Below, piece by piece: positions 39,614 to 64,000 of a DNA stretch of 64,000 nucleotides (its first letter is position 1; each line of letters begins with the position of its first letter). A model generated the notes under the pieces. That model was not told the DNA's origin. It did no database searches and saw nothing but the letters and a program-made list of their open reading frames with translations. The stretch covers positions 96,833,001-96,897,000 of the forward strand of contig CM027379.1 of the NCBI GenBank assembly GCA_015680905.1, given 5' to 3'. The position numbers and the translations under genes are program-made. The stretch is from Coptis chinensis (taxonomy: Eukaryota; Streptophyta; Magnoliopsida; Ranunculales; Ranunculaceae).

Positions 39614-39622
39614 AATAAACAT

Positions 39623-41715: not shown

Positions 41716-41739
41716 AGTATGTAGCTCGCTCACAGTTTA

Positions 41740-42790
41740 ACAAATTACAACGTAGAGAAACTTAAAAATAAAATAAAATAAGAATAATAAGAATAATAAA
41801 ATTAACTGAGTTCAGTTCCAAAACCATAAAAAGTTCTTGACATATGTTTTAAAAGTAACTACGGATACATACAATAGATCCAAGAGATACTTGACCCAAA
41901 TTGTACTTAAGAACCACGAGTTCAACATTCAACCAATATCACTGATTACAGGTAAATAAATTACAACTTAGAGAAACTTAATAAAAAAGAATAATAACAA
42001 AATAATCATAGATATCACTATTTTAGTACCTAAAATATTAAAAGTTACTGACAGATGCTTTGAAAGTAACTACCTAAATATGTACATTAGATCCAAGAGA
42101 TACTTAGCACAAAATGTACTAAAAGAAACACGAGTTCTGCCTTTAACCAATATCATCGATCATAGGTCAATAAATTACAACTTAGAGAAACTTACTTGAA
42201 AAATATAAATGGCTGATAGATGTTTCAAAAGTAACTACTAAATATGTGCATTATATCTAAGAGATACTTAGCTCAAAATGTACTAAAAAAACACAAGTTC
42301 AGCATTCAACCAATATCATCAATCACAAATCAATAAATTAAAATTTGTAGAAACTTAATTGAAAAAAAATATAAAATAAAATAATCACCACCATTTTAGT
42401 ATCCAAAATAATAAAAGTTGTTGAAAGATATTTCGAAAGTAACTACTAAATATGTGCACTAAATCAAAAAAAGATACATACCCATTGACCTAAAATGTAC
42501 TAAAAACACGAGTTCAACATTCAACCATTATCATTTAGAGAAACTTAATAAAAAAGAAAAATAATATAAAATAAAATAATAATCACCATTTCAATACCCA
42601 AAATCATAAAAGTTCTTTGAGATAGTTCTTTGAGATATGTTTCAAAAGTAACTATCATATATATACATAAGGTCCAAAATATACTTAGCCCAAAATGTAC
42701 TTAAATAACACGAGTTCAACATTCAACTAGTATTTTCTATATGTGACAAATATATTTATCGGTTTATAACTTCGATCACAAATTAATAAA
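41740..42790. repeat. Degenerate tandem array, unit about 160-215 bp
   Basis: A block containing CAAGAGATACTTAGCNCAAAATGTACT, ACACGAGTTCAACATTCAACC and ATAAATTACAACTTAGAGAAAC recurs about five times, with the first block near 41884, 42099, 42261, 42470 and 42670. It lies between the MULE transposase and the CACTA insertion. Confidence 0.85.
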
Positions 42791-43084
42791 TTAAAACTTC
42801 GAGGAGATATTTATGCTAAAAAAACAAGCATTTTAAAAATGTATATATTTGGTATGTAAGAAATAATATTTATAAGTGACAAACAGATTCGTCATTATGT
42901 AGCTGATATATTGTTTGAAAGTAACTACCAAATTCGTACATTATAGGCAAGAAATTTTTTACACAAAATGTATTGAAAAAAAACACAAGTTCGTTTTTTT
43001 TTTTCAGGTTCTTCTAAAACACCTGCTCCACAATCAAATATCCAACACTCATTGTCAATCACTACACCATAACTGCTATTTTGT

Positions 43085-43175
43085 AACAGGACAAATTTTC
43101 AATAAGTAACGGAAATAACTGTTACTCATTAAGTAACGGATATAATAATATCCGTTACTTATGACCGCAAGTGTT
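43085..43175. repeat. Left subterminal repeats of the CACTA element
   Basis: AAGTAACGGA, CTGTTACTCATTAAGTAACG, GGATATAATAATATCCGTTACTT and GTGTTACTTA lie within 90 bases of the end. These are candidate binding sites for the TNPA-type protein, by analogy with En/Spm. Confidence 0.8.
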
Positions 43176-43179
43176 ACTT

Positions 43180-44774
43180 AAAACCTTGAATTATAATATA
43201 ATAATATTTTCACATTTTTTTTGGATATGCTAACACTTATATCCGTGAGAAAAGTAGAAAATTAGGCAACAAAATTAAAATAATTTGAAAAAGAAAAAAA
43301 AAACCGGAAGTGGACCAATATTTGGTCACGCGCGCTTGGCTTTCATTCTTTCCCCCCCTTTTTTATTTCGGCTAACACTTAATTAGCCAATTCTAATTTC
43401 GCCGTTTTTAAGTTAGGAAGGAAACAAAAGAAAAAACTCTCTTAAGAACCCTAATCTTGTGAAACGGTCTTGCGATTTCTTTCTCTACTTCTCCAACTTT
43501 CTACAACCCCAGGTTAGTGAGTTGACTCTCTCGATTCCGATTCGTCAAATCAATTTTTACCATATTGTTTTTTTTTATCGATTGAAAAATCAATTTTTTC
43601 TTTCTCTCTCTCATTCTCCTGGTTTAATTATTTGTAGAATTCCAGTGGACTATTAGTAACGAAGTGGACTGATCAAAAGTGGAAGTTCAAAATTCGGTAA
43701 GCTTCCAATCGGTGCTCACTCTACTTTTTAGTCTACCTTGTTTAATGAATCTAGATATAGTTGTTGAATAATGTTTTAGCTGGTTTGGGTACTGGGGCTT
43801 TTTATTAAGTTGCGTCGGGTCCTAGAACTGCGGTTGTTACAAGTGTTATTGGTGGTTTGGTCGCTAGTCTTTATTCTTCTTTGGGAAACATCTTTGTTAA
43901 AAGATATGTTCCTATTTGATTATGACAATTTTCATGCTGTTGTTAGAGAGGGGTAAATTGGGGGTTTAATCGATGGTTTATGTTTTTGTTTTTAGAATAA
44001 ATTACATGTTTTGTTCTGTTACATTTTATGATGATGGTAACTCTATGTTACACAAACAATTTATGGTATTGTACTCAATGTATTGAGTTACACATTGTCA
44101 AGTGCTGAAATTTAAAATCTTTTGGAATCTTAAGTCTTGGATGTTATCTTAGATATAGTTGTTGAAGTAGTTTTCTTTCTCCGGTTTTTTTTTTTCTCGA
44201 TGTCTTTGTTGAGAAAAGATATATCATTATTGTGCACACTTGAATATTTAGTTTGGTTGAATTTACTGTATTATGCGAGTTTATATTTTGCAATCGATGA
44301 TAAAATAAGAGGTTGCTACTGGATTCTAACAATGCTTGTATAATTTGCACATCCTATGAACGACTAGTGATATGTTAGGCGACATTGTTTCAAAAGTAAG
44401 GTTAAATCATATCGAAAATAGACAAAGATTAAATTGGATTATATAGGTTTGAGTATGGAGCTCATTTCAGTATGGGGGTTAATGAACTAGTAATTATGCA
44501 TGATTAGAATCATAACTTCCAGATCATTTATGCATTGGTTTTATCTTGCGAGCTGCGTAGTATTTAAACGTGTTTGTATTTAGCGCACGTGTTGGACTTA
44601 TTGGACTCATTGGACTTATTGGTTTTATTTGGTTTTTATTTTATGTATATAAAGTTTCTGTTATTTATATTTATGATGCCGTTTGTTTCTTGTTTTTTGG
44701 TTGTACTTGGATAGCTAGTTGTGCGTTATTTATCTTTGATCATTATTTCCCTTGGTGTCTAAATATAGTATAGA
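43180..44774 (+). other. Presumed promoter and leader of the CACTA transposase gene
   Basis: No coding frame is recognised. A pyrimidine-rich stretch at 43470-43620 and possible leader introns fit a promoter and 5' leader. A short GGACTTATT/GGACTCATT tandem is seen near 44593. Confidence 0.4.
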
Positions 44775-47700
44775 ATGTCAGAACCAATAGATAAAGAATG
44801 GATGAGTGAAAATGAAAGAGGCGGCGTAGTCTATTCATTGGGAGTTGAGGTTTTTCTTAAATTTGCAGAGTGGAAGTTGGGCGGGAAGAAGTGTCCTTGC
44901 CCGTGCAAGAAGTGTCGGAATAGGTATTGGTTGATGTATAAAGAGGTTGGATACCATTTAATCTCAAAAGGTATAGAGAAGTCCTATCGTATATGGACTT
45001 TACATGGTGAGGACTTATCTAACGCTGCTGTTCATCCTCCATTGGTTGCAAATATTGGAGAAAAAACCTCGGATGATGATGGGTTTGAGATGGGGGACAC
45101 TGAGGAAGAAACCATTGGGGACGTTGGGATTGGGATGAGAAACTTTGTCGACTCTGCTTTTGGATTACATGGTGATGCGGTGGCAGGTGATGACAGTTTG
45201 GGAATTGAATTTGATGAGCCTTATGTTCCTGAACCAGACTTAGGAAAGAGGTATTACGATTATAAGAAAAAGGCAACTGAAAAATTGTATCCTACATGTG
45301 AAGGTCCTGAGACAACTCTCTCAGCACTTGTAGAACTTCATAATGTAAAGAAAGAATTTGGTTGGTCTGGAACTGGTATGACAGTACTCTTATCCTTGTT
45401 GAGGCGATGGTTGCCTAAAGGTAACACCCTCCCTGAGAAGTATCCGGTAATGAAGGAGATGTTGAAAGACTTAGGGATGAAGGCTACGTGCATTCATACA
45501 TGTGAGAACAATTGTATCTTATATTGGAAGACGAACAAAGATTTTGAGAATGTCCCGAAAGTGCCAAGCACCAAGGTTTAAAGTTAAGGAGGGAGTAAAG
45601 GGAAGAAGAATTCCAAGGAGCCTAACAAGGTAATGAGACATTTTCCTTTAATTCCAAGACTCAAAGCGGTTGTATACTATACCATGGATAGCGCATGAGA
45701 TGACATGGCATGCACGAGCAGAGACTTCTGCGGCTTATATGCGTCATCCAATTGATTCAGGTCAGTGGAAAATTTGTAAAGAAAAGTGGCCAAACTTTGC
45801 TAATGAGCAGCGCAATGTTTGGCTTGCAATTGCAACCGATGGGTTTAATCCACGTGGCATTCAATCTACTAGTTATAGTTGTTGGCCTGTTATCACTGTG
45901 CCTTACAATCTCCCCCCTTCTATGTGCATGAAAGCAGAGTTTCAGATGTTGTCTTTACTTATACCCGGTCCAAAGGCACCAAAAGGAGACATAGATGTTT
46001 TTCTTGAACCATTGTACGATGAGTTGAAAGAGTTGTGGAAAGGAGTGTCGGCTTATGACATGAACAAAAGAGAAAACTTCACTTTGAAGGCTATGCTAAT
46101 GTGGGGTATCCATGATTTGCTGCGATATGGAAACTTAGCGGCTGCGTAATACATGGTTACAAAGCTTGTCCTGTTTGTGGTGACAATACTCCTTCCATAT
46201 ATTTGAAGTCTAGTAGGAAAAATGTATACTTAGATTACCGTATATTTCTTAAAGGCAATCACCCGTTCAGAACGGCAAGTACTTTTGGGGCTAGTGGGTA
46301 GCAAGAAAGAAGAGCGTAGAAATCCTCCTCAACGATTAAATGGCGATGTACTTTTGCAAACACCGAAGTTATGTGAAGTATAAACCCGGTCGAGAAACGG
46401 AAGAGAGGTGGTCAAATTGTGGTTGATGACAATGAAGGTAATGAAGTTACATCGGCCTGGTATAGAAAGTCCATATTGTTTTTCCTTGTTTACTGGATCT
46501 ATCACAAAGTTCGTCATGTTATTGATGTGATGCACATTGAAAAGAATGTTGTAGAGCACATACTAGACACGATCCTTAATAAGAAAGACAAATCGAAAGA
46601 TACAGTCTAGGCACGAGAGGATATGAGGGAACTTGGCATACACCGGGATCAGTGGATGCAAACTGACCATGCAAGTGGGAAACAAGTTAAACCTACAGCA
46701 CCGTTCTTCCTAGATAAAGCAGAGAAGATGGATTTCCTTAAAACTTTGAAAACTTTGAGGCTCCCTTCGGGTTTTTCATCTAACCGAGTAACATTGTCGG
46801 TCTTGATCCACTGGTTTGCTTGTAATGAAGTCACACGACTATCATGTGATTATGCAATATCTTTTGCCCCGTGCTACTTCAACATGCTTTTCCAACTCAT
46901 CGATTTGCGGAAAGCTCTTCATCGATAAGCTTATTTTTTAACCTTTTGTGTTCGAAAAGTTGTAATTCGAAAAAAATCCAAGATGCAAAGTACATGGTTG
47001 TAGAGGCGTTGTGCGTCTTTGGAAAAGTACTTTCCACCATCATTTTTGATATTAGCATTCACCTTGTTGTGCATCTAGTGATGAGGCATTGATGTGTGGA
47101 CCACTCAAAATCGTTGGATGTATCTGTTTGAACGGTAAATAATCCTTCTTTCAATCCCAATTCTTTTTTCCTTGCTTTTAAATAAAATTAATAAATACAT
47201 TCATGGGTTTATCACTTAATTAGGTCAATGAAGGAGTGCAAAGATATACCCAGTAACAAACGATTTGTTGAAGGATCGATTGCAGAGTCGTATCTTGTCT
47301 CGAGATGCATTAGGTATGCAATGGAGTACATTCCAAATTCACAGCCCAAGAATCACAAAACCAATGGTCAAGTGTTTCTAGATGAAAATGATGAATATAG
47401 CGATGAGGGTTCTGTGCTTGAAGGTAAAGATGTGATTTTGTCGAAGGAGAAATTTGTACAAATCCGTAGATGGCTACTTTTCCGTTTGGAAGTTGATGGA
47501 CTTGATGATCACTACAGGTGTTAGTTTTTGGCATGGATGTTTACTTCCCTATTAATAAATTCACACATATATACTAACTTATTTGAATAAATTGTAGTGA
47601 GTATCGTGAGTCTTTGCAATCTAGTTCCCGAGGCAGCAGAAAAGGGATAACAAAGACAGAAGTAGAGATACAAACAGATTTTATCGATTGGTTATATAAT

Positions 47701-48380
47701 AAGGTATTTGTTAATTAGGATAGTAAGTTATGTTTTTATGTTATTTTTACTTTTTGAATTGTGGTATATTTTCTTTATAGTTGTTGGAGAATGGCGACAC
47801 TTCATCTGAATTGTGGTTCTTTGCTAGAGGGCCATTGTTCAAAGCTAAAACTTTTCGAAAGTATCGCATCAATGGTTATGTATTTTCTACTAAGTCTCAC
47901 GATGAAACCGTTCTTACGCAAGACTGTGGTGTTTGCATGAGTGCAATTACTACATTTACATCAAGTAGGAAAGATAAAAATCCTATTGATGCGTCTGCTA
48001 AGTGGTATGGAGTCATCAAACAGATACTAGAGGTGAATTACACAAATTTCAAGGAAGTGGTGTTTTATTGTGATTGGGTTAGGGTGGAAGATAAGACCAA
48101 TGGATGTAAGTTATGCCTAGACTCTAACTTGGTGGTGGTAAATTTTAATCGGCTCAAGAGTTCCGACAAAATGTTAGATGAGCCAGCCATTTGTGCCAAA
48201 GAAGCAAATCAAGTATTCTATTCGAGGGATTTGAAATATCCTGATTGGTGGGTGGTCATACATTCACCAAGGCGAATGACTAACGAAGTGGACAAGCTAG
48301 AAGCACCAGAACCAGAAGACTTCCAATCTACTCTTGCAGAGCAACCTCATTTGAGATCACTGCTAGAACCACGTCGTTGA
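44775..48380 (+). CDS. CACTA transposase, TNP2 type with associated domains, degenerate
   Basis: The first open part (44775-45581) starts with a Transposase-associated domain: FLKFAEWKLGGKKCPCPCKK, CRNRYWLMYKEVGYHLISKG. TNP2 follows: VMRHFPLIPRLKRLY, EMTWHA, YMRHPIDSGQWK, LAIATDGFNPRG, MLSLLIPGPKAPKGDIDVFL. After a one-base shift near 46130 it goes on with HGYKACPVCGDNT, then VIDVMHIEKNVVEHIL, MGIHRDQW-like and LRLPSGFSSN blocks. A DUF4218-type part (KIQDAKYMVVEALC, FDISIHLVVHLV) and RFVEGSIAESYLVSRCIRYA follow. A DUF4216-type segment ends it (WYGVIKQILEVNY, FYCDWVRVEDKTNGCK). At least four frame breaks and stops occur, so this copy cannot make a whole enzyme. Order and content match the plant CACTA family. 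Confidence 0.88.
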
Positions 48381-48623
48381 TTGTAGTGTGCAATAATTTT
48401 GAAAATATGTTCAAATGCCTACCTTCCTTTTTTTATGATCATCTTAAGATTTTCTAGTAGTTTGGAAAATTAATTTTGGATATTATGGTTAATTTGATAG
48501 TGCATATTCTTTTATTTCTTTTAGTTCTTTTTGAATAATTGGTTATGTCATATTTTAAGTGTTATGAAATCGTTAATAATTTGTTTTCAAATGTTGTTGG
48601 AAATTGTTAGGCTATTTTTAAAT

Positions 48624-50161
48624 AATGGAATCAGGTACAACCGCGACACCGCATTGCATCGAGATACCTCTTCTCCCACAGGTCAATGTACTTCTCAGTC
48701 ATCCAAGAAGACACAATTAATGGGTCCCTCCGGGAAAATGCTTGTTGAGTTATGGCCTAATGGCCAAATTGTTGGACAAAATGCAAGCAAGTTCAAAACT
48801 GCAATAGGGAACCAAGTGAGGCTTAATATCCCTATCAATACCAAGGATTGGAGACTAGTGGATGGTGGCTTTAAGGATGCAATTTGGAAAGCCTTGACGG
48901 TAATTATTTTTATTTATTTATTTAATGTGTTAATTAAATAATCAACTTTACCATTAAGCTAAGCTATGTCTTAATATATTGTTTCTTATCAACTGTACTC
49001 ATGATAGGAGGAATTCGAATTTAATGTCGAAAACTTTGAAGCTCGTCCGTTGGTCGAGACAAATTATTCTCAAAAACTTAGGACACAGAAAGCGACATAC
49101 AGGGCAAAGTTTTTGGAGAAAGCTGAAAGCATTGAAGCAGCTAAGGAAAACTGCCCACCTGCTATTAATCCTACTCTTTGGGTAGATTTTGTCGACTATG
49201 AGCTTCAGACTAAAGTAAAAGAAAGGAATGCGAAAAATGCGGCAAATAGGGCCATGAATACTATTGGTAGTACTAATGGTAGGAGAACCTTCTCCCAAAG
49301 GCATAACGATTTGGTACGTATCATTTTTTAAATTATTAACCCTTTTGATTATGTATATAGATATGAATACTATTGTCGTCCTTTTTGAAGCACTATTACT
49401 AAGCATTGATTATTTGCCTGTAGCAACAACAAAACCCTCAAGCAAAAATAACTCGAGTTGATGATTGGCTTAAGGGTCGTGAACGCAGTGATGGAACAGT
49501 TTTGGAAAGTGCTCGGGAAAAATATGTGAGTAGAAGTTTTACTGCTTCTATTTTGTAACTTCAGTTTTTGATTGCTACCGGGTATATTTTGGGCTATTTG
49601 ATTGCTTTTAAAAAAAAAAACAAATAAATGCAGGATCAAGTGAAAGCAGTTAAAGAAAGAAGACTAGCATCCGGAGAGACTGACATGGGAGACATCGACT
49701 CCGATGCATTGAATGAAGTACTTGGCAAGGATAAGAAGAACCGTGTTCGTGGAGTTGGTTCTAATGTTTCTAGGAAGCAGCTACAACATGCTGCTGTCGC
49801 AAGCGCTTTACTCAACCAAATGGCTGCTACATCAGTTGCAAAGGTTGAGGCCGATGTGGCTACATTTAAATCAAAGGTCGAGACAGACATGTCTAAGGTC
49901 AAATCAATGCTCAAGGTCAGTTTTTTCTTGGCAATTACGGTTAATGGTTAGAGTTAGTAATATGTGAACCACACTTTAAAATTATCATGTCTTCATCTAT
50001 ACCCGCGATAGGTTCTCCTTCAACAACAACTAGGCAATACTACGACGGGCAATAATGTGATAGCCAATGCCAAAGCACATATGGGTGTGACTACACCCTT
50101 AACTGAAGTTGGTTCAAGTTCCGCTCAACGCCATTCTCCAAAGCAACCCCTCGGAACTTGA
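48624..50161 (+). CDS. TNPA-like protein with Transposase_24 domain
   Basis: Exons joined by plausible GT-AG introns encode, in order, a short leader (MESGTTATPHCIEIPLLPQ), GPSGKMLVELWPNGQIVGQN, TKDWRLVDGGFKDAIWKALT, then FNVENFEARPLVETNYSQ, KENCPPAINPTLWVDFVDYE, NAANRAMNTIGSTNGRRTFS, VDDWLKGRERSDGTVLESAR and a C-terminal Ala/Lys/Asp-rich part likely to form a coiled coil (ALLNQMAATSVAKVEADVAT). The stop is at 50159-50161. This is the layout of the plant Transposase_24 (Ptta/En/Spm) family, the second protein of CACTA elements, thought to bind subterminal repeats. Unlike TNP2 I see no clear break, so it may still be expressible. The exact start and first splice are uncertain. Confidence 0.8.
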
Positions 50162-52285
50162 CTCGCTTTTGGGTCGCTTTGAACAGCCTAGAGTCACATT
50201 ACTAGATAAGTTTGGTACGAAGTTGCTAAAGGGTCTATTGATTTAAGTGCAAAAATTTGTCATGCAGAATTCTTGGTTGGTGGAGAGAAGAGTGTATATT
50301 GATGAAGTATTGGTTCCGATGCTACTTTGTTTATGATGGTCCACAAGATGGTAATGAAATTTTGAATGCTTGGCTTGAAGGAGGGTATATAGCTTGGCTT
50401 GATGGGCGATTGAAGTATGATTGATGTTTGTAGGTTTTAGACCTTTTTTGGATTTCTCTACTTTTTGATCTTCCTGCTTTAGTTGAAGCTCAAGACATAT
50501 TTTTATGTGGTTGTGGTTGCCATGACTTGGAACTTTTTGGGTGTGTTGTCATGCCTTGAAATTTTTATGTGGTTAGTCTTGTCTAGTTGTAATAATATAA
50601 TGAACTCTTTAGCTGTCAAATCTTTTTATTAGTTTTATGTCGTGACTTGCCTTGTTGTAAACAAACCAAGGCCTTTTGTGTATTTAAGTTTAAGTGCGGA
50701 TGGCAGATGTCGAGATATTTTGAGCAATTAGTAGTCAGCCGGGGGATGCGTAAACCCCTGGTTAGTTTTTGTTTATTTTCTTCTTCTTTCTATTAGCTAT
50801 TTTAATATGAAGTTCTTATTTTCATTTATATCACTAATAAATGTGTAATTGTTTGATGCATGCGAGGTTCATACTGTTGGAGAAATGCTGTCGAGTGGTG
50901 ACTTATGCTAAGCCACTAAGGTACCACGAGAACATCTCGAACTCTTTTCATCACTTTCTTGTGTGTGTGTATTGCTTGAAAAGCTTGCGGCTTCTCTTAT
51001 ATCAAGTGCGAACAACTAAGATAATCATATGAATTCTACTAATTGTCTAAAATAGCAAGCCTTTGGTGATTCTACATTGCTCATATGATGATTTGTGATG
51101 ATGAGTTTGGATCTGTTGAATTGTAAACAATCAGAAACATCAATGGCGGCAGCACGTCCTCATAGTGCAGAAACAAGACCTGGGAGCTCTCAGCTATTGC
51201 AGTTTGCTGGAACATTATGGCTTGCTTTTGCTGTTTAATATATGATTCTGTCAATGCCGCAATTAGAAAGTCTGATTTCATCATGCTTAGTCTAATTATT
51301 TTCGATAATTACATTGCCCGTAGGGAGTGCCATCCCCAAGATTGATGGGTTTGATTTGAGTTCGAGATTTCCCAACACTTGGTAATCTTGAAAAAGAATA
51401 CCGAAGTCGCATGATTAACAAGGTTTGCATATTTACCTCATTAAGTTTATGTTTTAATATTTAATGTAATGTGGTCATTTCCAGTTTTTTTGCGTGATAA
51501 GAAATTAGTCCATACTTGAACAGCAGAGTATTAATTTTCTTGACATTTTTTCAGTTTTAGGGTTTGTTGCCTCTTTTCGAAAAAAAATTGTTAAGGGAAA
51601 CAATTTAAGATTTATAATTACCATCAAAGCTAATATTGTTAATCATTGACCTTATAAAAACAAAACATAGGGTGTTCATCATACCAACTCAAAACCCATC
51701 AAAAATCGACTCCTTCGGGAATCCCTTTTGTATTTTAAATTTAGAAACCTCGATATCTAGCTCGTTTAGCTCTCAGAGCCCTGATTTTTTACTTCCGCTC
51801 TCATGAAGCATGGGTATATTGCACGCCTAATGTTCCTCGGTTGTTTAATATGACTGCATATCATGCAACAAGTTGTTGGGTTTTCCAGTGGTCACTTTCT
51901 CTATTCATAGATTTTTCTCTATTCATATCGCGTTCTGCTGTTTGTGGGTTTTCTCACTACAGATTCCATTAGTTGTTAATTATTGTAATCACATGTTCCG
52001 TGTCTCGGATCTGTGGGTCAACTTGTTTCAGCCTTCAAAGACTAGGAACACCGAAAGGGAGATCCAAGTTTCAGAACTAGTGGGTATGCTTATGCTTAAC
52101 TATTCTATCAGGGCACGCAGACCGATATCCTTCATTTGAAATTTTGGAGTTCTTTATAAAGAATTACAATGACACAAGAGACGCGTGTCCATTGTCATCC
52201 GCTTGAAATTTTAGAATTTGAAGTTCTAAATGATAGAATTGAGATTTTTAATTGAACGATTTTGGTTTTCGTCTTGTATTTTCAG
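50162..52285 (+). other. Start of the captured region, no exon recognised
   Basis: The first part holds the 3' flank of the TNPA-like gene. From about 51100 on, the sequence looks like host intron or leader DNA. One exon-like piece (51308-51420, ending AACAAG before GTTTGC) could not be assigned. Confidence 0.4.
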
Positions 52286-53483
52286 AAGTTGAATCTGCAG
52301 ATGCAACCACCGATAAAGGATCTGTTAATACTTGGAAAAGAGACGACTTTCCATATATTGGAGAAGGAGTGCCACCCGGTCGATAAGTGGCGAGAGAGAA
52401 CCCCACCGTATCCCAATCACAATATGCCTCCTCGGCATTTTGAGCCCTATCACATGGTTCCTGTTCATAATCCTCCCGATGGACTTTGGTACAGGGGACC
52501 GCCTAGTATGCCTCCTTATGGACCCCCGGTCGTCCCGGTGGTGATCCACATGAATCATATGGTTACTATCATCCTCATCCCATCCTCAAGATTTAGCTAG
52601 GCCTTTAGCCAACTCACGGACACAAGAACCGAAGTTAAATGGGCCTCACTCAAAGCACGAAGGTTCTTGTCGACCGCAGATGCATGATCCTTACATTTGA
52701 CCTGTTTACCCAATTAGGCCGGTGCTTATTATGGGCCAGCTCCATATGAAAGCTTTTATGGTCCTCCACCTGCAGCTTTTTGCAATCCTAGCAGCCAAGA
52801 TGCCTCTAGGATGGGCGTGTCAAATGGACCTTGTATTTATAACCAAGATCCCAGCCATAATGTGCACACTCACACCGGCATTCTCCAGCCCTAGACCCAG
52901 TGGACAAATTCCCACAAACACCCCATTTGTCGGTGAGCAGGTGGAGTCAGTTGATTACAATACTCGTCGGGTCCATACAAGGTTCTTTTGAAGCAACATG
53001 ATAGTTGGGAAGAAAATGATGGTGTTCGAAGAGGGAGCACACTCCAGTGAGCCATACGCCATATCTTGAAAGAGGGAAGCGGTCGGGGGTTCTTGGAGAG
53101 GATGACTTTCAAGTAGATCGCACAAATGATGAACGGGTTGTTACCGCGAAAAAATCTTTGGGTATGGAGAAGCTTCATCTCAATCTGGCGACCCAAGGAG
53201 GATGCTTTGAAATACCACTGGTGTGAGTTTCTCGTGGGGACACAGACAAGGCAAAACTAGTAAGGATATTCTCTTGAAGAAGCAAGAAGATTTTCCTATT
53301 CCCGGTGGTTCACAGCATATGCTGTCCAAGAGAAGTTCGACTTTGATAGACAAAATAGAGGGCTTAAATACCAAAGCGCGAAATTCTAACCGCTTGGAAG
53401 AAAAGTTAAATGCTGTGGAGGGTGAGGATGCAAGATAAAGGAATGCAGCATTTGCTCCTGAAACAAGTGATTACAAGGCACAG
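52286..53483 (+). pseudogene. Captured exon resembling MOS1 (BAT2-domain protein)
   Basis: The block starts after TTTTCAG and ends before GTACTATC, like one large exon. Read across its frame shifts it gives WKRDDFPYIGEGVP, then KWRERTPPYPNHNMPPRHFE, GLWYRGPPSMPPYGPP, YYGPAPYESFYGPP and MGVSNGPCIYNQDPS. It goes on with GPYKVLLKQHDSWEENDGVR and LIDKIEGLNTKARNSNR. I recall the same order (WYRGPP, GPYKVLLKQHDGW, IQKIEGLNAKAR) from plant MODIFIER OF SNC1 1, a BAT2-domain nuclear protein that controls expression of the resistance gene SNC1 and flowering and cell-cycle genes. Several shifts and stops prevent one product. It lies on the transposase strand, 2.1 kb after the TNPA-like gene. No MOS1 N-terminus is seen. 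The family call is from memory of motifs. Confidence 0.68.
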
Positions 53484-55060
53484 GTACTATCTGTCTCTAT
53501 TGCCTTTCTGCATAGTATGTGTTTCTGCCCGAATTGTGATATTTAATGAGAAACACACACACCCTGAGGCCCCTCAAATTGAGTTGAGGCTTACCGCTTA
53601 CCCCTCACTTTTTTAGACTTGTGCCCACAAAGTAAGGTTGCAACCACAAACCAGCTAATCATGTGACTAAAATGGTCAGAGTATGATAGATGATTTCTTT
53701 GCTTATGTGTTGAAAATACAGCTTTTGGAGTTGATATTCTACACACCATTGGTTACATATATGTGAGATAGGCAGCACAAGAGCTAGGGAAGAAAGCTAT
53801 ATATTTAGGGTGTGCCTTTTGACCTAACCCGGGTTGAGAATAAAGGGCACATCCGAAGTCACAAGTCACAAAGAAGCAAAAAGGTATCTCATTTTCATTC
53901 TACCGCGTTCTATTTTGTAGGTCTTTACTCATAGAATTTTGCTTACTCGCGATTAAAAAAAAAATGATCCAGGGGCTTTCGAAGCTTCAAGAATCGCAAG
54001 AAGACATTCAACATCAATCTAAGACAGACGGTAATGGCCCTCAAAGTGATGTTGAGTCACATACTCGATGTTTATGAAGATGCAAGCAGTTTCGATAGCT
54101 CTTCCGATGAGGATTCACCAAGAGCACTTTCTTATCGAACCCCGCAATCACTCGTGTATGTCCAATTATTCTTCACATCTACCTTCCTATAGGAAAGAAA
54201 AACTACCCCCTTGCCCTTTTATTATGTAGGTTGCCAAGTTCCTACAGAGTGTTGCATTCTATTAACTAAAATTTAGTCAAAATTTTTTACACCGCCAAGT
54301 AGAAAAGAACTTGCCACTCTTATGAAGACAACATATTTTACACTTAGCTATTAGAAAATTGTTATTACTATGTAACGTTGTTATATAACTGTGGCGGGGG
54401 CATAGGGAGACTATTCAGATGTCTTTGTAATCCAGCATATGACGTGGATGATGAAGAGATCGTGTACAAAGGCAAATAATGCTGCCAGATCAGTTTTCAT
54501 AATTAGATACTATCCCCTTGGTAATGCTGAATCCACTATTTTTTAGATTCTATCTATAACGGTAGTGAGCCAATGCAAAATTTTCGATCGTCACACAAAA
54601 TATAGCATTACATCTTGAAAGAAGTTATTCGGATGATCAAATAATGACACCTATCACTTAGTCTTAATGTGTGATGGTTGTGCCCATACTATATTGTCAA
54701 CTGAAATAAACCTGATGAATACTTTCTAGCTCCAATATTGAAGGTGCAATGGGGATCATAATCAGCTTTCATATTCACTTGCAGGATGCATCAGAACCAA
54801 CAACGGTGAGCGCAGGATGGGGTAATGGGATAGGATCTTTGCCTCGTGAACCGAGCCCGAAAGATTGGAGGTGAAGCATGTGACTTCAGGTTACAAACTT
54901 CGTTATGAAAGTCCTTTTTCATCACCTATGGATATATAGTGCGTATTATGTAGTAGCTAAAAGGAGCATATTTCTTTTGTTAAGAACCATGAAGAAAGAT
55001 TAACATCATTTAGCTCATAAGAAAAAGTAAGTCCTCAATTTTTCCCCATTGTTGGTTTTG
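53484..55060 (+). other. Captured DNA between two gene fragments
   Basis: This is probably introns and weak exon remains. A serine- and aspartate-rich piece near 54045-54155 (DVYEDASSFDSSSDEDSP) and one near 54785-54860 have exon-like composition and may belong to the next fragment. I cannot place the junction between the two captured genes. Confidence 0.4.
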
Positions 55061-57275
55061 AAGGTACAGATGCAGATGTGATATCCAACAACCAGGAGAA
55101 GTTTGGATGGGCTGATTTGGTTGGCCGGTTCATGAAAAGATTGTCAAAGGAAGAAACAAGTTTAAAGAAAATGCTCAACAACTTGTAAAGGGTTTCAACA
55201 CCAATTCTCTTGTAGCCAAACATGCAAGCTTAGAGCAAGATCCTCACGGTGGAGAAGAAGACCACTTGTGAAGCTCGATGACTTTTTGTCATTCAACAGA
55301 GGACAACAGAGCTTGGGATGAAAGCATTAATAGGCACGGAAAGGAAGTAAGAAGTTCTTTTATAGCGCCTGCTCCTATAGAGAGCAAAAATGGTGAGAGG
55401 TGGCATGAGAAAGGACAAGAAGAACAAAGCGTAAAGGAAAATGATTCTACGAGAAGACAAGGGATGCGCTAAATTTTCACCGATGCTACCCAAAAGTTCA
55501 TAACATCTTCCAGTGCTACACTTCCGTGCTGTAATGAAGGAAGTATTGCAGCAAGTGGTACCTTCCCTAGGAAGAAACCGAGGCATCCAAAGTCTATTCA
55601 AACACGCTTGGACTCAGCTACAAGCAATGAGTCAACTAAAAACAGTCCATGTAATGAAGAAATAAAAGAAATTGATGTCTTGATTGACTTTTGTAGTGGT
55701 GCTAATACCTTCAGGAGTTTTGAAAAGAAAGACACTCTAGTTGGTCGTAAAGATGTAAGAAATAGCTTCACCGATGGTAAAGCTCGAGAATTAGAGTGTA
55801 AAATAGGGAAACTTGAGAGAGAGCTAAGAGAAGCTGCTGCAGCTGAGGTCTCTCTTTACTCGATAGTCGCAGAGTATGGGAATTCGACAAATAGGGTTTA
55901 TGCTCCAGCTCGACGCCTTTCCAGGTTATACTTACATGCTTGCAGAAATGGATCGCCAGCCTAGTAGGGAGAGTCTTTGCTAAAACCGCTTGTTTACGGA
56001 TTAGTTTTGTTTTTGTGAAAGCATGTGCAATCGATGTCCCAAGGTTCAGATAAACTCACTCTTTTGCTGTTTTTCTTCCTTGAAATTTTCATCAATACAC
56101 CTCCCAGATTTTAAATTTGCAAGTTTGAATCACGGTCAAGACATCAAGTGTATCTAGACTCTTTCCCCGCTTATAAGCGCCCCCTACTCTACTTACATTC
56201 AACCACATGGCTCTCATAAAGTTCAGCCGTGTCATCGGCTTGAGCTTTTGCAAAGCACAAAGGCGATGAAACTTTACAAACCAATATGTCTAGCTTAGAT
56301 GTTCTCCAAACCTGTTTCTTTGTTATCATATCCCAATTGTTGCACATTTAATTCTCCGTGAACTGCATTGCTCGAAGAAGGTGATACGTGAGTGGCTCCA
56401 TCTTTCGCCGATACATTTGCCGCACTGAGAGGAAGAATCAAAGTGGTACGAGACAGAAATCAAACTCTTCCACTTCTCAGTCAGTTCATTGTTTGGACTG
56501 CTTTATTGAAAAATAGGTTAACTTTCTGGCTATCAAATTCAGTTGTCTTACGAGCAAGCATCAAGCAAAGCCGATGAGAAGTTGCGACTACAAGCTCCTC
56601 TACACCCTATATTGAAATCAATGAATCTGGGAAGCCAAACAAAAAGAGATCTTCATTAATGAAACTGAAGGTGTCTCCCCATAGAAAGAAGGGAAGGAAT
56701 TTTGAGTTTACCAATGATTTTGACGACTGGGAGGATCCAAACACATTTACAAGTGCATTGGAAAGAATTGAAGCCTGGATATTCTCTCGAATAATTGAAT
56801 CATTATGGTGGCAGGTAAGCAAGTTAAATCCTAGTGATTTCTTTTTGTTAGATATCTCATATCATCTCATATCATCTCTATCTGAACATACTGAATCCAT
56901 TACAACTTGTATGTTTCGTGTTCTCTAGACTTTCACTCCACCTATATGCGATCGCCACTTGTCGGTATTATTCTCTATCTAGGTGACATGCTAGCTTATA
57001 TACTTTTTAATGTGAGTGGTTGCCTTTAAATGATCTGCTTTGTATTCTTCATTTAGTTATACATTTGCTCATTTTATGTACTGCATTTGTTTTCCTTTTG
57101 ATTTATTTTTGTCGTGTTTAGGTAGCCTATTAGTTCCATTCACACCTGTGACATCTTTAAACTTTTCAGGGGGATTACTTGGACTTTGCTTATCCATTTC
57201 AGTCTTTTCAAGTAGTAAAGACAGCCAGGATGCAGTTTTTGGGGCTGGGGAAGGATTGAAAGATACTAATTGGGT
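55061..57275 (+). pseudogene. Captured C-terminal exons of an EEIG1/EHBP1 (NT-C2) family protein
   Basis: Pieces in order: a coiled-coil exon (55608-55961) with KIGKLERELREAAAAEVSLY and the family hallmark APARRLSRLYLHACR; an exon near 56400-56577 with LTFWLSNSVVLRA; and an exon ending at 56814 with DDWEDPNTF and EAWIFSRIIESLWWQ before a GTAAGC donor. A further piece near 57215-57275 gives FGAGEGLKDTNWV. These blocks, in this order, are known from plant proteins annotated as EEIG1/EHBP1 N-terminal-domain (NT-C2) proteins, where they form the C-terminal half. The NT-C2 domain itself and the far C-terminus are not seen. Frames are interrupted in several places. Introns are kept, so genomic DNA and not mRNA was captured. 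Upstream, 55095-55190 (KFGWADLVGRFMKRLSKEET) may be an earlier exon. Confidence 0.72.
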
Positions 57276-57329
57276 GCGCCCTTCCATCTGTTTTTTAACT
57301 CTTGTTCTATGCTTTATTCTTTAACATTG

Positions 57330-59440
57330 ATAAAATTTCTTATTAGATTCGGTTTCTTTTGATAAACCACTGCACATATCGTTTAAGACATCAAACGTGA
57401 TTTGGTTTCTCAGTATCTTTTACACTCAATGTGGCATAAAATTAGATTAGATTCTCTTGCTATCCGGACTCTAGATTGGTCAATCGGGTGATATCCGTAA
57501 CTGAGTTTCAGCACAAGTTTTTTAATGCTTAGATCAGGGTGCTTAGGATCTGTAGGATTTCCAGATGTTGTTATGTTTTCCCTTTTACTTGCATATATCC
57601 TTGTAGGTCTTTTTGACCAGCTTTTCTTTGATTTAATGAATGTCAAATCTCAACAATGAAATGTTCATTTCACCAAAAAAATAAGGATTTTTGCTTGCAG
57701 TATGCATATTGGTTTTTTAGTTTAGCAGATTTTTGCTTGACATTTTACCCCTTGTCGTCTATATATATTTTGTTATTCTCGTATCCCTAGTGGCTAATTC
57801 TTTTTGATCTTCAGGGATGCGACTCTTCAATACAAAATCTTCTAGTATGGGCAGTACATCTCAGGTAATATTTTTGAGATCTATCAATAATTTTCATGTT
57901 TGGCTTTTCTTCTTAGCTCATAAGAGGATGCTGAATGAATTGTGATCAGAATCATGGATTCCCTGGCTGTACATTTCTTATTCATTCAGGGCGCTCGGCC
58001 GGTACTCCTCCCCTTTCTGTCAGTGGATAGCTCCAACCACTAGTGCAAGTTTTAATCCTAGGGAAGCAAGTCCAGTTCTTTGCGGAAGAGCTGGCTTCCC
58101 ATGATTCTCCCGTTCTGCTTATGGCGAGTGGTTTTTGTGATTGTCTTTTATCATACCATGCTAGCTAACATCAGAATCCTTAAATTTCTTGCAGGTCACT
58201 GCATCATCTTAATTGGTTAAGTGATCTACGGGATCAAGTTGAGCATTTGGAATTTTGAATGTTGTTTATCGACCTGATCGCTTTAGGATCACGCCTACCC
58301 TCTATAGCTAGCGCCAAGAGCAAGGGTTCTTTGGGGGCAGGTGCCATTTTGCCCGATCTCGAGTAGTACTCGAGGTAACTTTGTACCAACTTTGAAAACT
58401 TATGTCCGGTTTTGAGCAACTAGGGATGTGGTTTATTGTGCTAAATGATTCGTTCGAACAATTGATGTTACAAACTTCTTATGCTTATGTTAGAATTTAA
58501 GGAAATAATATTGTCTTTTGCTAACAAGTATTAGGCTGCAAAGAGGATAAATTGCAAGGCATTGCCTTGGTGGTTTGGCCTTTCTCTTTGGTACTTTAGT
58601 AGCACATTAAGCTATGTGACATGGACACTTCATATTTTGAAAGCCTCAGTAATGAATTGACTCTTGCAGAAAAAAAAAATCTTTCTAGTAGGGAAAGGTT
58701 TGTGGTGTGTCTCCTAAACAAATGCTAATATGTGCCTAATAAGATAAGTATCCGCATATCCGTGTGGACACAAACACATTGACGCATAAAATTTCTAATT
58801 GTGGTTACCCTGATAGACTAAGAACACTCTCTGTTAACATATAGTCACAATTCCATGAGATGACCCTAGCATTGATTTCCTTGTAAGGAGGCGCTTTATA
58901 AGGTTTTAACCCCAAGAAATATTTGTGTAACTAGAGGATTGAAATATTTTTTTACCTAACTATGTCCTACTTCATATAGGTTGCCATGTCAGAAACCAAC
59001 ACACACCTGTGTCAATGTTTCTCAGATATTTCAATTCTTGCCAGGCTTTGTCAAATAAGTGGTGATATCGTGGGAGAAGTTATGGGAATTGCAGATGTGC
59101 ACCCCTAAAATGATGGGGAACACTCGAGAGAGCAATAACAGAGCGACCGTGTGGCGACCAATACAATGGGATATTCTATGACAAACATATTAGACATCCC
59201 AAGATTAGGTTAGGTGAAGTCATTTCTATATAAGTTTGATTTGTAAATTGGGATTTGGACTAGTGTCTATATTTTTATAATAATGTTTAATTGATTAGTG
59301 GTTTTGTTTTTGTTATTATATGTTGATTAAGTTTGTGGAATGTGATATCTCTATAAGATGGAATATTCATATGTGTGGTGAACTTTTTTGACATTTTGAC
59401 CGGAAAAAAAATAAATATATATATTTTTTTAATCGACAAA
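57330..59440 (+). other. Rest of the captured region, no clear exon
   Basis: This has intron-like T-rich DNA and short degraded open pieces. Some may be later exons of the EEIG1/EHBP1-like gene, but I cannot support any. Confidence 0.4.
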
Positions 59441-59444
59441 AATT

Positions 59445-59850
59445 TAGTAACGGATATATCCGTTACACACATCGATATCAATAGCAAGTGGCACATTTAT
59501 TACTAACGGATGTATCCGTTACACATATCGATATTAATAGCAAGTGGCACATCTATTACTAACGGATATATCTGTGACATATGAAAATTGATTTCCCTTG
59601 AAGAAAAGTAACTAAAGCAGCGCCAAACGTTACTAACAATTATATCCGTTAGAAATGAATAGATTAAACTGCCGATCAACAGTTGGCTATCCGTTACAAA
59701 GAATTATAGTAACGGATATAAGCGTTACTAAGATTAATTTAAGTAACAGTTATATCCGTTACTAAATTTTGCCTAAGTGACTGTAACACCCCAGAGCTAA
59801 CGGATATAAGCGTTAGTAAAAATATAAGTAACGGATATAGCTGTTAGTAA
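59445..59850. repeat. Right subterminal repeats of the CACTA element
   Basis: About ten copies of GTAACGGATATA or TATATCCGTTAC occur, several fused into the palindrome GTAACGGATATATCCGTTAC. A TACACATATCGATATTAATA-type block (including AGCAAGTGGCACAT) is repeated twice. The motif is the same as in the left subterminal region. Confidence 0.9.
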
Positions 59851-60349
59851 AAACCTTTTTTGGTGTAGTGAATTCAACTTATCACATTAGAATTTTTTCT
59901 CCATTAGATAATTTACCTTTCAATTTTGAACGTCTTCAAACTACTAAATGAAAAAAGATAGATTGGGAATACCTTTTGACAAAGTTGTTACTTGACAACT
60001 TACCTTTCTTACGTCTTGGAACTATGATAAGGTTTTAGCGTATCCAAACACACAAAAATCAGTTCAACAAGTTGATATTTGTTTATTCCGTGTGAATTAT
60101 ATATGAACAAAAACTTTAAAATGGATAATATAATTGGTTGTGAGAGATAAATGTAGGATAATGAAAATGGTAAATGGGGAAAAATGAATAACAAGAGAAT
60201 TGAAGGATTAAGAAAAAAAATTTGAAAAAAAATAAAAGAAATTATGTGGAAATGAGCTGAGTAATAAGAAATGTAAGAAGAAAATGAGATATCTTGTTGT
60301 TTTCCCGCCTAACTATTTTCCCGCCCAATTATTCCCGCCCAACTATTTT

Positions 60350-61134
60350 CCCGCCCAATTTATTATGTCTTTTGTCACCTTACAAGTGAGAGACTGACAA
60401 ACTCACATGCACTGTATATCAGCAACTTTACTAGTGTTAATTGTTTTATCGCTAATATTTTTCCCGCTCAATTATTTCCCGCCTAACAGATTTCCCCCCA
60501 AATTCATTTGTCTATTTTCATCTTATAAGTGAGGGACTGACAAACTCATGTGCATTGTATATCAACAACTTTACTGTTATACATTGACTAATTATTATTT
60601 CATCTACTGATGAAACTACTTCATGATTTAGAATTTCGGTTTTGTTGGATTTTGATGTAATAAATTTGAAAAGAATATGAATTTTATCATTTTAATGGAA
60701 TATATCTTTTGTTCATTTTATTATGAGACATCTTTTATTATTTTGTAAAGAATATGAATTTTGTTATTTGAATGAAGATGGATTGTGTTAAATTTATTGT
60801 TTTATTATTTATTAATTATTTTTATTTATTATATTTTTAGTCATTTTAATTACTTAAGAAATAAATAAAAAAATACTCAAAAATCAATGATTGAGTGTAA
60901 GAGGAGAGAGAAAAGTGTAAGAGGAGAGAGAGTACTGTTTTGTTTAAAAACAAAACTCAAATACGTCAACATCATGGGACAAGGAGAGAGAAAAGTGTAA
61001 GAGGTGAGAGAAAAGTGTTTTGTTTTTATTTGAAGGGCAAAATTGTCAAAAGCCGCGTTAAAAAGTCAAAATTGGAAGTGGGTTACTACTTGGGAACACA
61101 TTGACATTATGGGTTACTACTTGGGAAATTACCC
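60350..61134. repeat. Right TIR arm of the MULE
   Basis: This is the inverted counterpart of 39623-40410, with the same order of blocks and small differences. It ends directly at the 9-bp target duplication. Confidence 0.9.
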
Positions 61135-61159
61135 AATAAACATTATAAAAAGGTATTTG

Positions 61160-61844
61160 TTACTGCCGGACCCCAATTTGTGTTGGGCGGACTAAAAAAA
61201 ACGATTATTACAAGTGTGCCATTGGTTTCAAAAAATCTAAAAAAAAAAACAATTATTACAAATATGCCATTGATTCCCAAAAAATTGAATTCGAAACCCC
61301 AAACTTAAACGACCCGGCTAGGTCGTTTGGACTAAGTCCCAAACGACCCGGCCACACCGGTTAAGAGCCCAAAAAACAGAACTTTGAATTTTTTTTCAAA
61401 GTTCAAATCCCAAACGAGCCGTCTGGACTGAGTCCAAAACGATGTGGCCATGTCGTTTGGGATTTGGACTTATAAAAAAATGGCCACACCGTTTGGACTT
61501 AGAAAAATCCCCAACGATATGGCCACACCGTTTGGACTAAGTCTCCAACGATATGGTCACACCGCTTGGACTTAGTTCAAAACGATGTGGCCATGTCGTT
61601 TGAGATTTGAACTTTGAAAAAAAATTCAAAGTTCTGTTTTTTGGGCTCTTGACCGGTGTGGCCGGGTCGTTTGGACTAAGTCCCAAACGGTGTGGCCAAG
61701 TTGTTTGGGACTTAGTCCAAACGACCTAGCCGGGTCGTTTAAGTTTGGGGTTTCGAATTCAATTTTTTGGTAATCAATGGCATACTTGTAATAATTGTTT
61801 TTTTTGTGGGAGTCCGCCCAACACAAATTGGGGTCCGGCAGTAA
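61160..61844. mobile_element. Long foldback element with CCAAACG-rich arms
   Basis: It starts TTACTGCCGGACCCCAATTT and ends in the exact inverted copy AAATTGGGGTCCGGCAGTAA. The arms continue to match inward (ACAATTATTACAA, AAACGACCCGGC, TCAAAGTTC) for nearly half the element. The centre is a set of short inverted and direct repeats of CCAAACGGTGTGGCCA type. The open frame on the minus strand is a by-product. I see no clear target duplication. Confidence 0.85.
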
Positions 61845-62100
61845 TAGGACCCTTATAAAAATGAATTGGAAATCTCTCACTTCTCTATCTTTCTTCCTTT
61901 TATCATACACTCTATTCTTTCTCTCTCTAGCTCTTTTTGGCTGAGGTGTTCACAATAGGCATTCTCTCTCACTGCGTCTCTGCATAGTGTTTATCACACT
62001 ATATAATAGATACAGAGCCAACCCATGCATGCATTTGTTAATACACACTTACAACCAAGAAAAAAAATATTCTTCTCTTCCAAGAAACTAAAAATTTGAC
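61845..62100 (+). promoter_or_regulatory. Possible promoter and leader
   Basis: A TATA-like CTATATAATAG at about 61999-62009 is followed by a typical A-rich plant leader (ACAACCAAGAAAAAAAATAT) before the ATG at 62101. CTCTCTCTC tracts lie upstream. Confidence 0.4.
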
Positions 62101-62479: not shown

Positions 62480-64000
62480 CTAGCTTTCGAACCCGTTCTA
62501 CGAACGGGTGCCGTTATATTAAATTATTCTAAAAAATATTAGCAACTATACATAGTTGTTATGAGACATGAAAATTATATTAATCACTCATTCAAATTTC
62601 TTGCACCACTCTCTATAAAAATGAAGCACTAAACCTTGATAAAACTCATCAACTTTTTTTTGTTGTTGTTAGATTTAATAATAAAAGTGTGTTTGAAGTT
62701 TTGTGAGAATGCCCAATGTGGCGAAGATAATATTGAAGCTACTTGAATAGCAAGTCATTCCCAAGCATAATAAAAGAATTATGATAATCACTACTTAAAA
62801 TGCAAAACTATATTTGTTGAGACATTTATTCCCACACTACATATAATACAAACATGTTTTAGGGTTATTAGTTCAATGCATTTGCACCAAGTTTCTGATT
62901 TTCCATTAATTATTTTTTGAGGTTAGTTCAATGTAGTACGTTGCATCCAGTTTCCAATTTCTCATTAATTATTCTTAGAGGTTAGTTCAATGCAGTTGCA
63001 TCAAGTTTTCGATTTTCCGTTAATTATTATTTGAGGTTAGTTCAGTGCAATTGCATTCACTTTATGATTTCCTGTTAGTTATTCATTAAGGTTAATTCAG
63101 TACAGTTACATCCAGTTTTCGATGTTTCGTTAATTAGTCTTTGAGATTAGTTCATTGCATTTGAATCCATATTCTAATATCCCGTTAATTACTCTTTGAG
63201 GTTAGTTCAATACATTTGTATCCAGTTTCTGATATTCTGTTAATTATTTTTTTAGGTTAGTTCGATAGTTTACAATTTCTAGTTATTTATGCTTTGAGGT
63301 CAGTGTAATGCAGTTACATCCGGCTTTCGATTTCCAGTTAACTTTTTTTTGATGTTATTTCAATGCATTTGCATCAAATTTCTGATTTCCCATTAGTTAA
63401 TATTTGATTTTAGTTTAATGCAGTTGCATCCAGTTTTTGATTTTCCGTTAATTATTCTTTGAGGTTAGTTCAATGTAGTTGCATCCAATTTCCGATTTTA
63501 TGTTAATTGTTCTTTGAGGTTAGTTCAATGCATTTGCATCAAGTTTTCGATTTCCCGGTAATTAGTTTTTGAGGTTAGTTCAATGCAGTTACATCAAATT
63601 TATAATTTCCAGTTAATTATTCATTTAGGTTAGTTCGATCAGTGCAGTTTCATCCATTTTTCAATGTTTCATTAATTAGTCTTTGAGATTAGTTCATTGC
63701 ATTTGCATCTAGTCTTCGATTTTCCATTAATAACTCTTTAAGGTTAGTTTAATACATCTGCATCTAATTTCTGATTATTTATGCTTTGAGGTCAGTTCGA
63801 TACAATTACATCCAGTTTCTGATTTCCTGTTAACTATTCTTTGAGGTTATTTTAATGCATTTGCATTTAGTTTCCGATTTCCCACCAATTATTCTATGAA
63901 GTTAGTTCAATACAGTTGTATTCAATTTTTTATTTTATGTTAATTATTTTTTGAGTTTAGTTCAATGCATTTGCATCTAGTTTCCGGTTTCCCATTAATT
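62480..64000 (-). mobile_element. Helitron 3' end with an internal minisatellite, runs off the window
   Basis: On the minus strand the element ends in ACCCGTTCGTAGAACGGGT (an 8-bp hairpin at 62491-62509), then TCGAAAG, then CTAG at 62483-62480, followed by T. This is the standard Helitron 3' layout. The element would extend right, over the tandem array and out of the window, so its 5' end and any Rep/helicase gene cannot be checked. Confidence 0.62.
62868..64000. repeat. Minisatellite, unit about 54 bp, about 20 copies
   Basis: The unit reads GAGGTTAGTTCAATGCAGTT, GCATCCAGTTTCCGATTT, CCCGTTAATTATTCTTT with 5-15% variation between copies. Starts are seen at 62921, 62980, 63034 and 63089 and onward to the window end, so the array continues beyond 64000. 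Confidence 0.93.

Follow-up and report, generated by a model that had tools for sequence, protein, structure and literature searches.

Pieces of at least three host genes in a decayed CACTA element of Coptis chinensis, probably acquired by gene capture

Gene capture is already well known in plants. For instance, the soybean CACTA element Tgm-Express1 is described as a 5.7-kb copy with five unrelated gene fragments that gives rise to chimeric transcripts (PMC1947982), and 140 CACTA capture events with 145 genes are given for wheat chromosome 3B (PMC4290129). Pack-CACTA elements of Arabidopsis, maize and rice hold captured coding DNA between CACTA termini, and maize Pack-TYPE elements often contain more than one locus, the Pack-CACTAs most (PMC8903248). 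In Ipomoea nil, the Tpn1 family combines subterminal repeats, 3-bp duplications and genic capture, and one of its elements yields chimeric transcripts (PMC5105172). Furthermore, Chenopodium CACTA-like elements combine transposase domains with captured gene fragments, the latter located on the 5' side, ahead of ORF1 (PMC8978399).

The element reported here is a further example. It resembles Tgm-Express1 in bearing several unrelated host gene fragments that retain exons and introns, but it is larger (16.8 kb), contains at least three fragments and has kept decayed transposase domains. Like Pack-CACTAs, it holds its cargo between CACTA termini. However, Pack-TYPE elements are defined as non-autonomous, and elements matching a transposase are placed in another class (PMC8903248). 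Since our element still matches transposase domains, though broken ones, it is a transposase-bearing CACTA with cargo and, strictly speaking, falls outside the Pack-TYPE class. Its likeness to the Tpn1 family is drawn from published descriptions, and here transposase domains and cargo coexist, whereas in non-autonomous Tpn1 copies host DNA has taken the place of the interior. It differs from the Chenopodium elements in that the cargo lies 3' of the transposase region instead of 5'. In view of the soybean and maize precedents (PMC1947982 and PMC8903248), the earlier note's view that two genes in one CACTA copy are unusual finds no support, nor does its proposal of a best candidate for an undescribed element, as multi-gene capture by CACTAs is documented. 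What the locus adds is a well-bounded case in which a CACTA with transposase domains still recognizable has captured three or more genes. Among the matches listed for the literature on transposon capture, EEIG1 was absent and, by title, none dealt with the plant gene MOS1.

Limits and nesting of the element

The window is the whole stretch of C. chinensis DNA that was analysed (64,000 nucleotides of contig CM027379.1). Its outer and inner element ends are as follows.

39,614-39,622, no strand: left 9-bp target duplication of the MULE, AATAAACAT, an exact match to 61,135-61,143
39,623-40,396, + strand: left terminal inverted repeat of the MULE (aligned stretch), sharing 91% identity over 780 alignment columns with the right end in reverse complement
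41,050-41,559, - strand: MULE transposase domain (Pfam PF10551, E 8.7e-18)
43,057-43,059, no strand: left target duplication of the CACTA, AAT, equal to 59,871-59,873
43,060-59,870, + strand: complete CACTA (En/Spm) element of 16,811 bp, with paired ends, 3-bp duplication and subterminal motif
43,107-43,248, no strand: left subterminal repeats of the CACTA, few and diverged (3 of 19 motif matches, 2-3 mismatches each)
59,448-59,846, no strand: right subterminal repeats with the TAACGGATATATCCGTTA-type motif, 8 places, each on both strands (16 of 19 matches)
59,871-59,873, no strand: right target duplication of the CACTA, AAT, equal to 43,057-43,059
60,381-61,134, - strand: right terminal inverted repeat of the MULE (aligned stretch), pairing with 39,623-40,396
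61,135-61,143, no strand: right 9-bp target duplication of the MULE, AATAAACAT, an exact match to 39,614-39,622

The outer element, spanning 39,623-61,134, is a MULE by its long inverted repeats, its 9-bp duplication and its transposase domain, and the CACTA is nested inside. One and the same MULE is found to the left and to the right and is itself bordered by an exact 9-bp duplication, so that 43,060-59,870 is an insert in a single element. The insert begins with CACTACACC at 43,060 and finishes with GGTGTAGTG ending at 59,870; the two are in inverted orientation and identical in their outermost 10 of 10 bases, while they agree poorly further inwards. The left end was located by reading; a search with the right end's 17 bases did not recover it at up to 3 mismatches. 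The subterminal motif has 19 matches in the window, 3 in the left end region of the CACTA, 16 in the right one and none elsewhere, where shuffles predict 0.11; the motif was picked after inspection of the right end. Inverted ends, 3-bp duplication, subterminal repeats and a tnp2/TNPD-type transposase place the insert in the CACTA (En/Spm) superfamily, and the size of 16.8 kb previously given for this copy agrees with the distance between its paired, AAT-flanked ends. End-like strings also occur inside the element without subterminal repeats (CACTACA at 47,510 and 51,955; TGTAGTG at 47,593, 48,382 and 55,692). Additional CACTA ends within the insert were considered and rejected, the subterminal motif being absent from 43,248 to 59,448.

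The transposase region occupies the left part of the insert.

44,769-45,578, + strand: ORF with transposase-associated domain (Pfam PF13963, E 1.9e-18)
45,736-46,356, + strand: tnp2 (Transposase_21) domain of a TNPD-like transposase (Pfam PF02992, E 6e-52 in one frame)
47,201-47,359, + strand: DUF4218, second half only, covering 57-109 of the 114 profile positions (Pfam PF13960, E 7.4e-10)
47,781-48,377, + strand: ORF with DUF4216 (Pfam PF13952, E 1.1e-12)
49,008-49,774, + strand: weak TNPA-like region (Transposase_24, Ptta/En/Spm; Pfam PF03004)

PF13963, PF02992, PF13960 and PF13952 follow one another in order, all on the + strand, and the PF03004 matches (1.4e-4, 0.0027 and 0.0062) all lie under the curated Pfam cut-off. 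The reading frame is broken: the PF02992 match runs on in a second frame (profile 131-199, E 1.6e-11), and Pfam did not find the first half of DUF4218. With tnp2 split over two frames and half of DUF4218 not found, this copy lacks an intact, autonomous transposase, a feature that is optional for the superfamily.

Composition of the cargo

Pieces resembling three unrelated genes follow the transposase region on its 3' side and precede the right end, all on the same strand as the transposase.

about 51,131-53,483, + strand: probable captured fragment of a MOS1 (BAT2-like) gene (tblastn), with introns, stops and frame changes
53,484-53,721, + strand: putative hybrid intron, GT after 53,483 and AG at 53,720-53,721
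about 53,715-54,479, + strand: captured DnaJ-X gene fragment, 3' part to the stop codon (Pfam PF14308)
54,786-55,470, + strand: exon-like stretches, no Pfam match
about 55,590-56,814, + strand: probable captured fragment of an EEIG1/EHBP1-like gene, middle part of the protein (tblastn), introns retained
56,929-56,957, + strand: possible next EEIG1 exon (TFTP...), damaged, with AG at 56,927-56,928; resembles At3g01810 by eye
57,170-59,400, + strand: rest of the insert, about 2.2 kb, no credible Pfam or PDB match

The earlier note had recognized intron-bearing MOS1-like and EEIG1/EHBP1-like pieces on the transposase strand before the right end, and both reappear in tblastn with Arabidopsis queries: the best E values are 1.8e-13 (followed by 7.6e-5) for MOS1 and, for At3g01810, 1.2e-20 (residues 492-585) and 2.6e-18 (residues 326-461), with the matches of each protein in order on the + strand, whereas shuffling, 20 times for each protein, gave no E value below 0.021 in 40 queries. 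Both queries were unverified versions of the Arabidopsis proteins rather than library entries, and the fragments are presumably MOS1-like and EEIG1/EHBP1-like insofar as these versions, on which the two identities rest, are accurate; the DnaJ-X identity comes from a library. Pfam assigned neither piece to a family; BAT2_N and NT-C2, domains of the MOS1 and EEIG1 families, were not matched.

MOS1 residues 136-161, 235-258 and 280-461 are matched in order, followed weakly by 511-540. The match at 53,340, in order within the cargo, scored E 0.71, or 0.052 in a narrower search; a second MOS1 match at E 0.71, which lies outside the cargo on the opposite strand (31.3-31.5 kb), was set aside as chance. 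The MOS1 part begins at about 51,131, some 1.15 kb before the start at 52,286 first proposed, and ends near 53,483.

The cargo is not confined to two genes, as a third piece, DnaJ-X, had been missed. PF14308 was matched with E 1e-6 in one read-through frame and with 6.9e-13 once exon pieces had been assembled by hand across frames and joined; the tail from the domain to the stop codon is presumably part of the same gene. Weak matches of the joined piece to PET117 (0.099) and Herpes_UL24 (0.24) were regarded as chance, and four of the six pieces submitted to Pfam alongside had no family at all. The intron at 53,484-53,721 may be a hybrid, with its donor from the MOS1 part and its acceptor from the DnaJ part, in which case the capture junction should fall in or near it.

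The exon-like stretches at 54,786-55,470 may belong to the EEIG1-like gene as exons further upstream; At3g01810 reached at best E 0.90 by tblastn in 53,480-55,600. Downstream of 56,814, the same query gave nothing convincing, including no match at 56,929-56,957. A pattern search for relatives of the EEIG1 piece hit 6 stretches in viral_contigs and 95 in genome_contigs, none of which was confirmed by tblastn. Pfam in six frames over 50,421-52,300, 53,450-55,600 and 56,800-59,440 gave DnaJ-X as the only credible match, followed by SPRY (0.011) and Glycoprotein_B (0.027), and a PDB search with the EEIG1, DnaJ and tail pieces gave noise or no match. CpG depletion did not single out the cargo. Splice motifs, GT or AG, stand at 12 of the 12 proposed exon borders, which were chosen by eye for those motifs.

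Origin of the cargo

We favour, at a probability of roughly 85%, the reading that a transposase-bearing CACTA, now decayed, captured pieces of at least three unrelated host genes together with their introns and was inserted in the MULE. Capture by the CACTA, as proposed before, is well supported by the single end pair with its 3-bp duplication, by the same MULE on both sides and by the intron-bearing pieces of unrelated genes. In our model, a CACTA (En/Spm) element that once bore its own TNPD/TNPA-type genes would have taken up genomic DNA of three or more host genes (MOS1-like, DnaJ-X and EEIG1/EHBP1-like) in the part between its TNPD/TNPA-type genes and its right end. The pieces were likely copied from other loci through an accident of transposition or repair, which may have been either complementary deletions at the termini of adjacent CACTAs or a template switch while a gap was being repaired. 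Capture would have come first and insertion later, by a cut-and-paste move into the MULE that left the AAT duplication, with decay since then. Should the number of pieces in each of the other copies come to light, the succession of captures could be deduced, which would help in testing the mechanisms proposed for them.

Helitrons are usual carriers of several gene fragments, and three unrelated intron-bearing pieces on one strand would also fit a Helitron that jumped into the CACTA with its cargo, an origin that we consider unlikely. For maize, PMC4290129 mentions Helitrons with captured genes. A single weak candidate for a 3' end lies just left of the cargo, at 50,629 on the - strand, but it needs a 5' end to the right of the cargo, and none was found on that strand right of 47,669 within the CACTA; nor does the + strand hold any 3'-end candidate inside the element. 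No pair of Helitron ends (5' TC, 3' hairpin and CTRR) was found to bracket the cargo, although diverged ends could escape a scan whose assumed 5' motif was allowed at most 1 mismatch. The 12 candidates for hairpin, CTRR and T in the window compare with 5 to 17 (mean 9.7) in 12 shuffles, so that the scan, being at chance level, weighs little either way. The Pfam-scanned stretches contain no Rep/helicase domain, but non-autonomous Helitrons do without it anyway.

Under capture by the CACTA, transcripts starting from the element might be spliced so as to join exons of the host, and the three pieces might even form a working chimeric gene under the element's promoter. Their sense orientation relative to the transposase, the retained splice motifs and a 163-aa stop-free frame at 55,473-55,964 in the EEIG1 part are in line with such a gene, as are the chimeric transcripts known for Tgm-Express1 (PMC1947982). 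Against it, the matched MOS1 frame at 52,409-53,032 holds six stops and the EEIG1 stretch at 56,515-56,814 one, and there are repeated changes of frame in the MOS1 and DnaJ parts. Neither of these latter two parts is likely to give a working product, and we regard a functional chimera as very improbable.

We give equally little credence to a broader version, in which a transposase-bearing CACTA has a preferred 3' pocket where exons of the host accumulate and are transcribed in sense with its own genes. If this were true, its copies would make spliced chimeras, or small RNAs acting on the parent genes, including MOS1, a regulator of immune-receptor expression.

Finally, resident host genes or pseudogenes that merely happen to have an unrelated CACTA end on either side, a possibility the earlier note had raised and that we deem close to negligible, could appeal to the restriction of perfect end agreement to 10 bases and to the roughly 1 in 64 chance agreement of a 3-bp duplication alone, but the subterminal motif is common to both ends, and the same MULE on both sides with its exact 9-bp duplication speaks strongly against them.

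The CACTA element and its transposase region

We consider the stretch below, with a probability of about 0.85, to be a CACTA (En/Spm) element that captured pieces of at least three host genes and lies within a MULE.

43,060-59,870: CACTA element, 16,811 bp
39,623-61,134 (39,614-61,143 with target duplications): MULE enclosing the CACTA element
41,050-41,559, minus strand: MULE transposase domain (PF10551, E 8.7e-18)

The outermost 10 bases of the CACTA ends are inverted copies of one another and are flanked by AAT on either side, while beyond these ten bases the two ends match poorly. Indeed, a 17-base query taken from the right end failed to retrieve the left end even with up to 3 mismatches allowed; the left end was recognised by reading. 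The subterminal motif TAACGGATATANCCGTTA, picked after the right end had been seen and searched with up to 3 mismatches, matched 19 times across the window (0.11 expected; at most 2 in any of 100 shuffles), and all 19 matches were confined to the end regions, 3 on the left (43,107-43,248) and 16 on the right (59,448-59,846). Elsewhere, at 7,147-7,163 on the minus strand, a CACTA-type end, CACTACACCAGAAATGG, differs by 2 mismatches from the end of the studied element; it perhaps belongs to another CACTA, and the same CACTA-end search gave no partner for it.

On the plus strand, Pfam matches within the element follow the order PF13963 (transposase-associated domain), PF02992 (tnp2), PF13960 (DUF4218), PF13952 (DUF4216) and PF03004 (Transposase_24), the last being sub-threshold. 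The tnp2 open frame closes at 46,149, the remainder of the domain lying in a different frame, and only the second half of DUF4218 appears among the Pfam matches; judged from these defects, the transposase is probably dead.

Probable captured gene fragments

As Pfam assigned no family to the MOS1-like and EEIG1-like pieces, sequences of Arabidopsis MOS1 and At3g01810 (which we take to be of the EEIG1/EHBP1 family) served as tblastn queries against the window; both names are provisional and depend on these query sequences. MOS1 matched two linked pieces at 52,288-53,032 (E 1.8e-13) and, collinear with these, 51,131-51,208 (E 7.6e-5); a weak match at 53,340-53,429 keeps the order (E 0.71; 0.052 in a narrower search). 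A further MOS1 match outside the cargo (E 0.71) was ascribed to chance. At3g01810 matched 56,515-56,814 (E 1.2e-20) and 55,590-55,946 (E 2.6e-18), compared with a best E of 0.021 among 20 shuffles of each query. Both genes named by the earlier note were matched by tblastn, though not by Pfam, and its count of two proved too low.

The third piece, DnaJ-X (PF14308), was detected by a Pfam scan of frames across 53,450-55,600 reading through stops (E 1e-6; 28.9 bits, slightly below the 29.4 cut-off). Joining its exon pieces across frames exceeded the cut-off (E 6.9e-13, 49 bits); this joining was done by eye and could bias toward a match, a bias from which the single-frame result is free. A stop codon (54,477-54,479) seems to mark the end of the piece. 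Pfam gave no family for 54,786-55,470, and neither Pfam nor PDB a credible match for 57,170-59,400.

All three fragments share the strand of the transposase, as the earlier note had claimed for two of them. Matched exons are separated by intron-like gaps, so the cargo probably derives from genomic DNA and not from spliced RNA; GT/AG was present at 12/12 proposed exon borders, which had been picked by eye beforehand. The interval 53,484-53,721 could be an intron whose donor comes from the MOS1 part and whose acceptor comes from the DnaJ part; a capture junction would then lie within it.

Known gene-capturing CACTAs

Several genes within one CACTA, which the earlier note held to be unusual, are already known from published cases and so not unusual. 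Soybean Tgm-Express1 holds five unrelated gene fragments in 5.7 kb, with exons spliced into chimeric transcripts (PMC1947982), as against at least three in 16,811 bp here; maize Pack-TYPE elements often contain two or more loci, the number being highest in Pack-CACTAs (PMC8903248); and on wheat 3B, 140 CACTA capture events involved 145 genes (PMC4290129). Also described are Ipomoea Tpn1 elements that take up genic regions, one yielding chimeric transcripts (PMC5105172), a transposase-bearing soybean CACTA of 20.5 kb (PMC2613891), and, in a review, capture via neighbouring elements with complementary terminal deletions (PMC13317346). In Chenopodium CACTA-like elements, captured pieces are placed upstream of ORF1 (PMC8978399), whereas those of the present element lie 3' of the transposase region. 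What sets the present element apart is that its transposase domains are broken, that at least three pieces occupy a 3' position and that it is nested in a MULE, all in one copy; this makes no new kind of element.

Alternative origins and the enclosing MULE

The serious rival, improbable in our estimate, is that a Helitron sitting inside the CACTA brought the cargo: a candidate 3' end lies just left of it at 50,629 (minus strand), yet a search with a 5' motif, allowing up to one mismatch, found no partner end right of the cargo on that strand within the CACTA. Within the CACTA, the plus strand held no 3'-end candidate and the minus strand two (50,629; 49,664). The scan, which could overlook diverged ends, is at chance level: it returned 12 candidates in the window, and between 5 and 17 (mean 9.7) in each of 12 shuffles.

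The broken frames make it unlikely that the cargo works as a chimeric gene: frame changes recur in the MOS1 and DnaJ parts, six stops interrupt the matched MOS1 frame (52,409-53,032) and one the EEIG1 stretch 56,515-56,814. The EEIG1 part does retain a stop-free frame of 163 aa. Ordinary resident genes interrupted by CACTA ends, a possibility raised in the earlier note, are strongly disfavoured, because a single MULE lies on both flanks and the sequence between the CACTA ends is therefore an insert. The inverted repeats of this MULE align over 780 columns with 91% identity, and the 9 bp AATAAACAT are duplicated exactly at its borders.

Tandem repeats with periods of ~163 and ~214 bp occupy ~41,730-42,733 within the MULE. 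Its right end is adjoined by a fold-back of ~720 bp (61,141-61,863) with arms of 121 and 79 nt (complementarity 95 and 97%; outermost 53 nt, 85%), whose outer arm starts inside the 9-bp duplication. Further out, 62,868-64,000 is tandem-repetitive, with numerous shifted self-matches, up to the window end; a tRNA gene lies at 38,062-38,151 on the minus strand (Rfam 50.4 bits; gathering score 29), and overlapping open frames at 33,907-36,039 resemble, by eye, a FAR1/FHY3-type gene.
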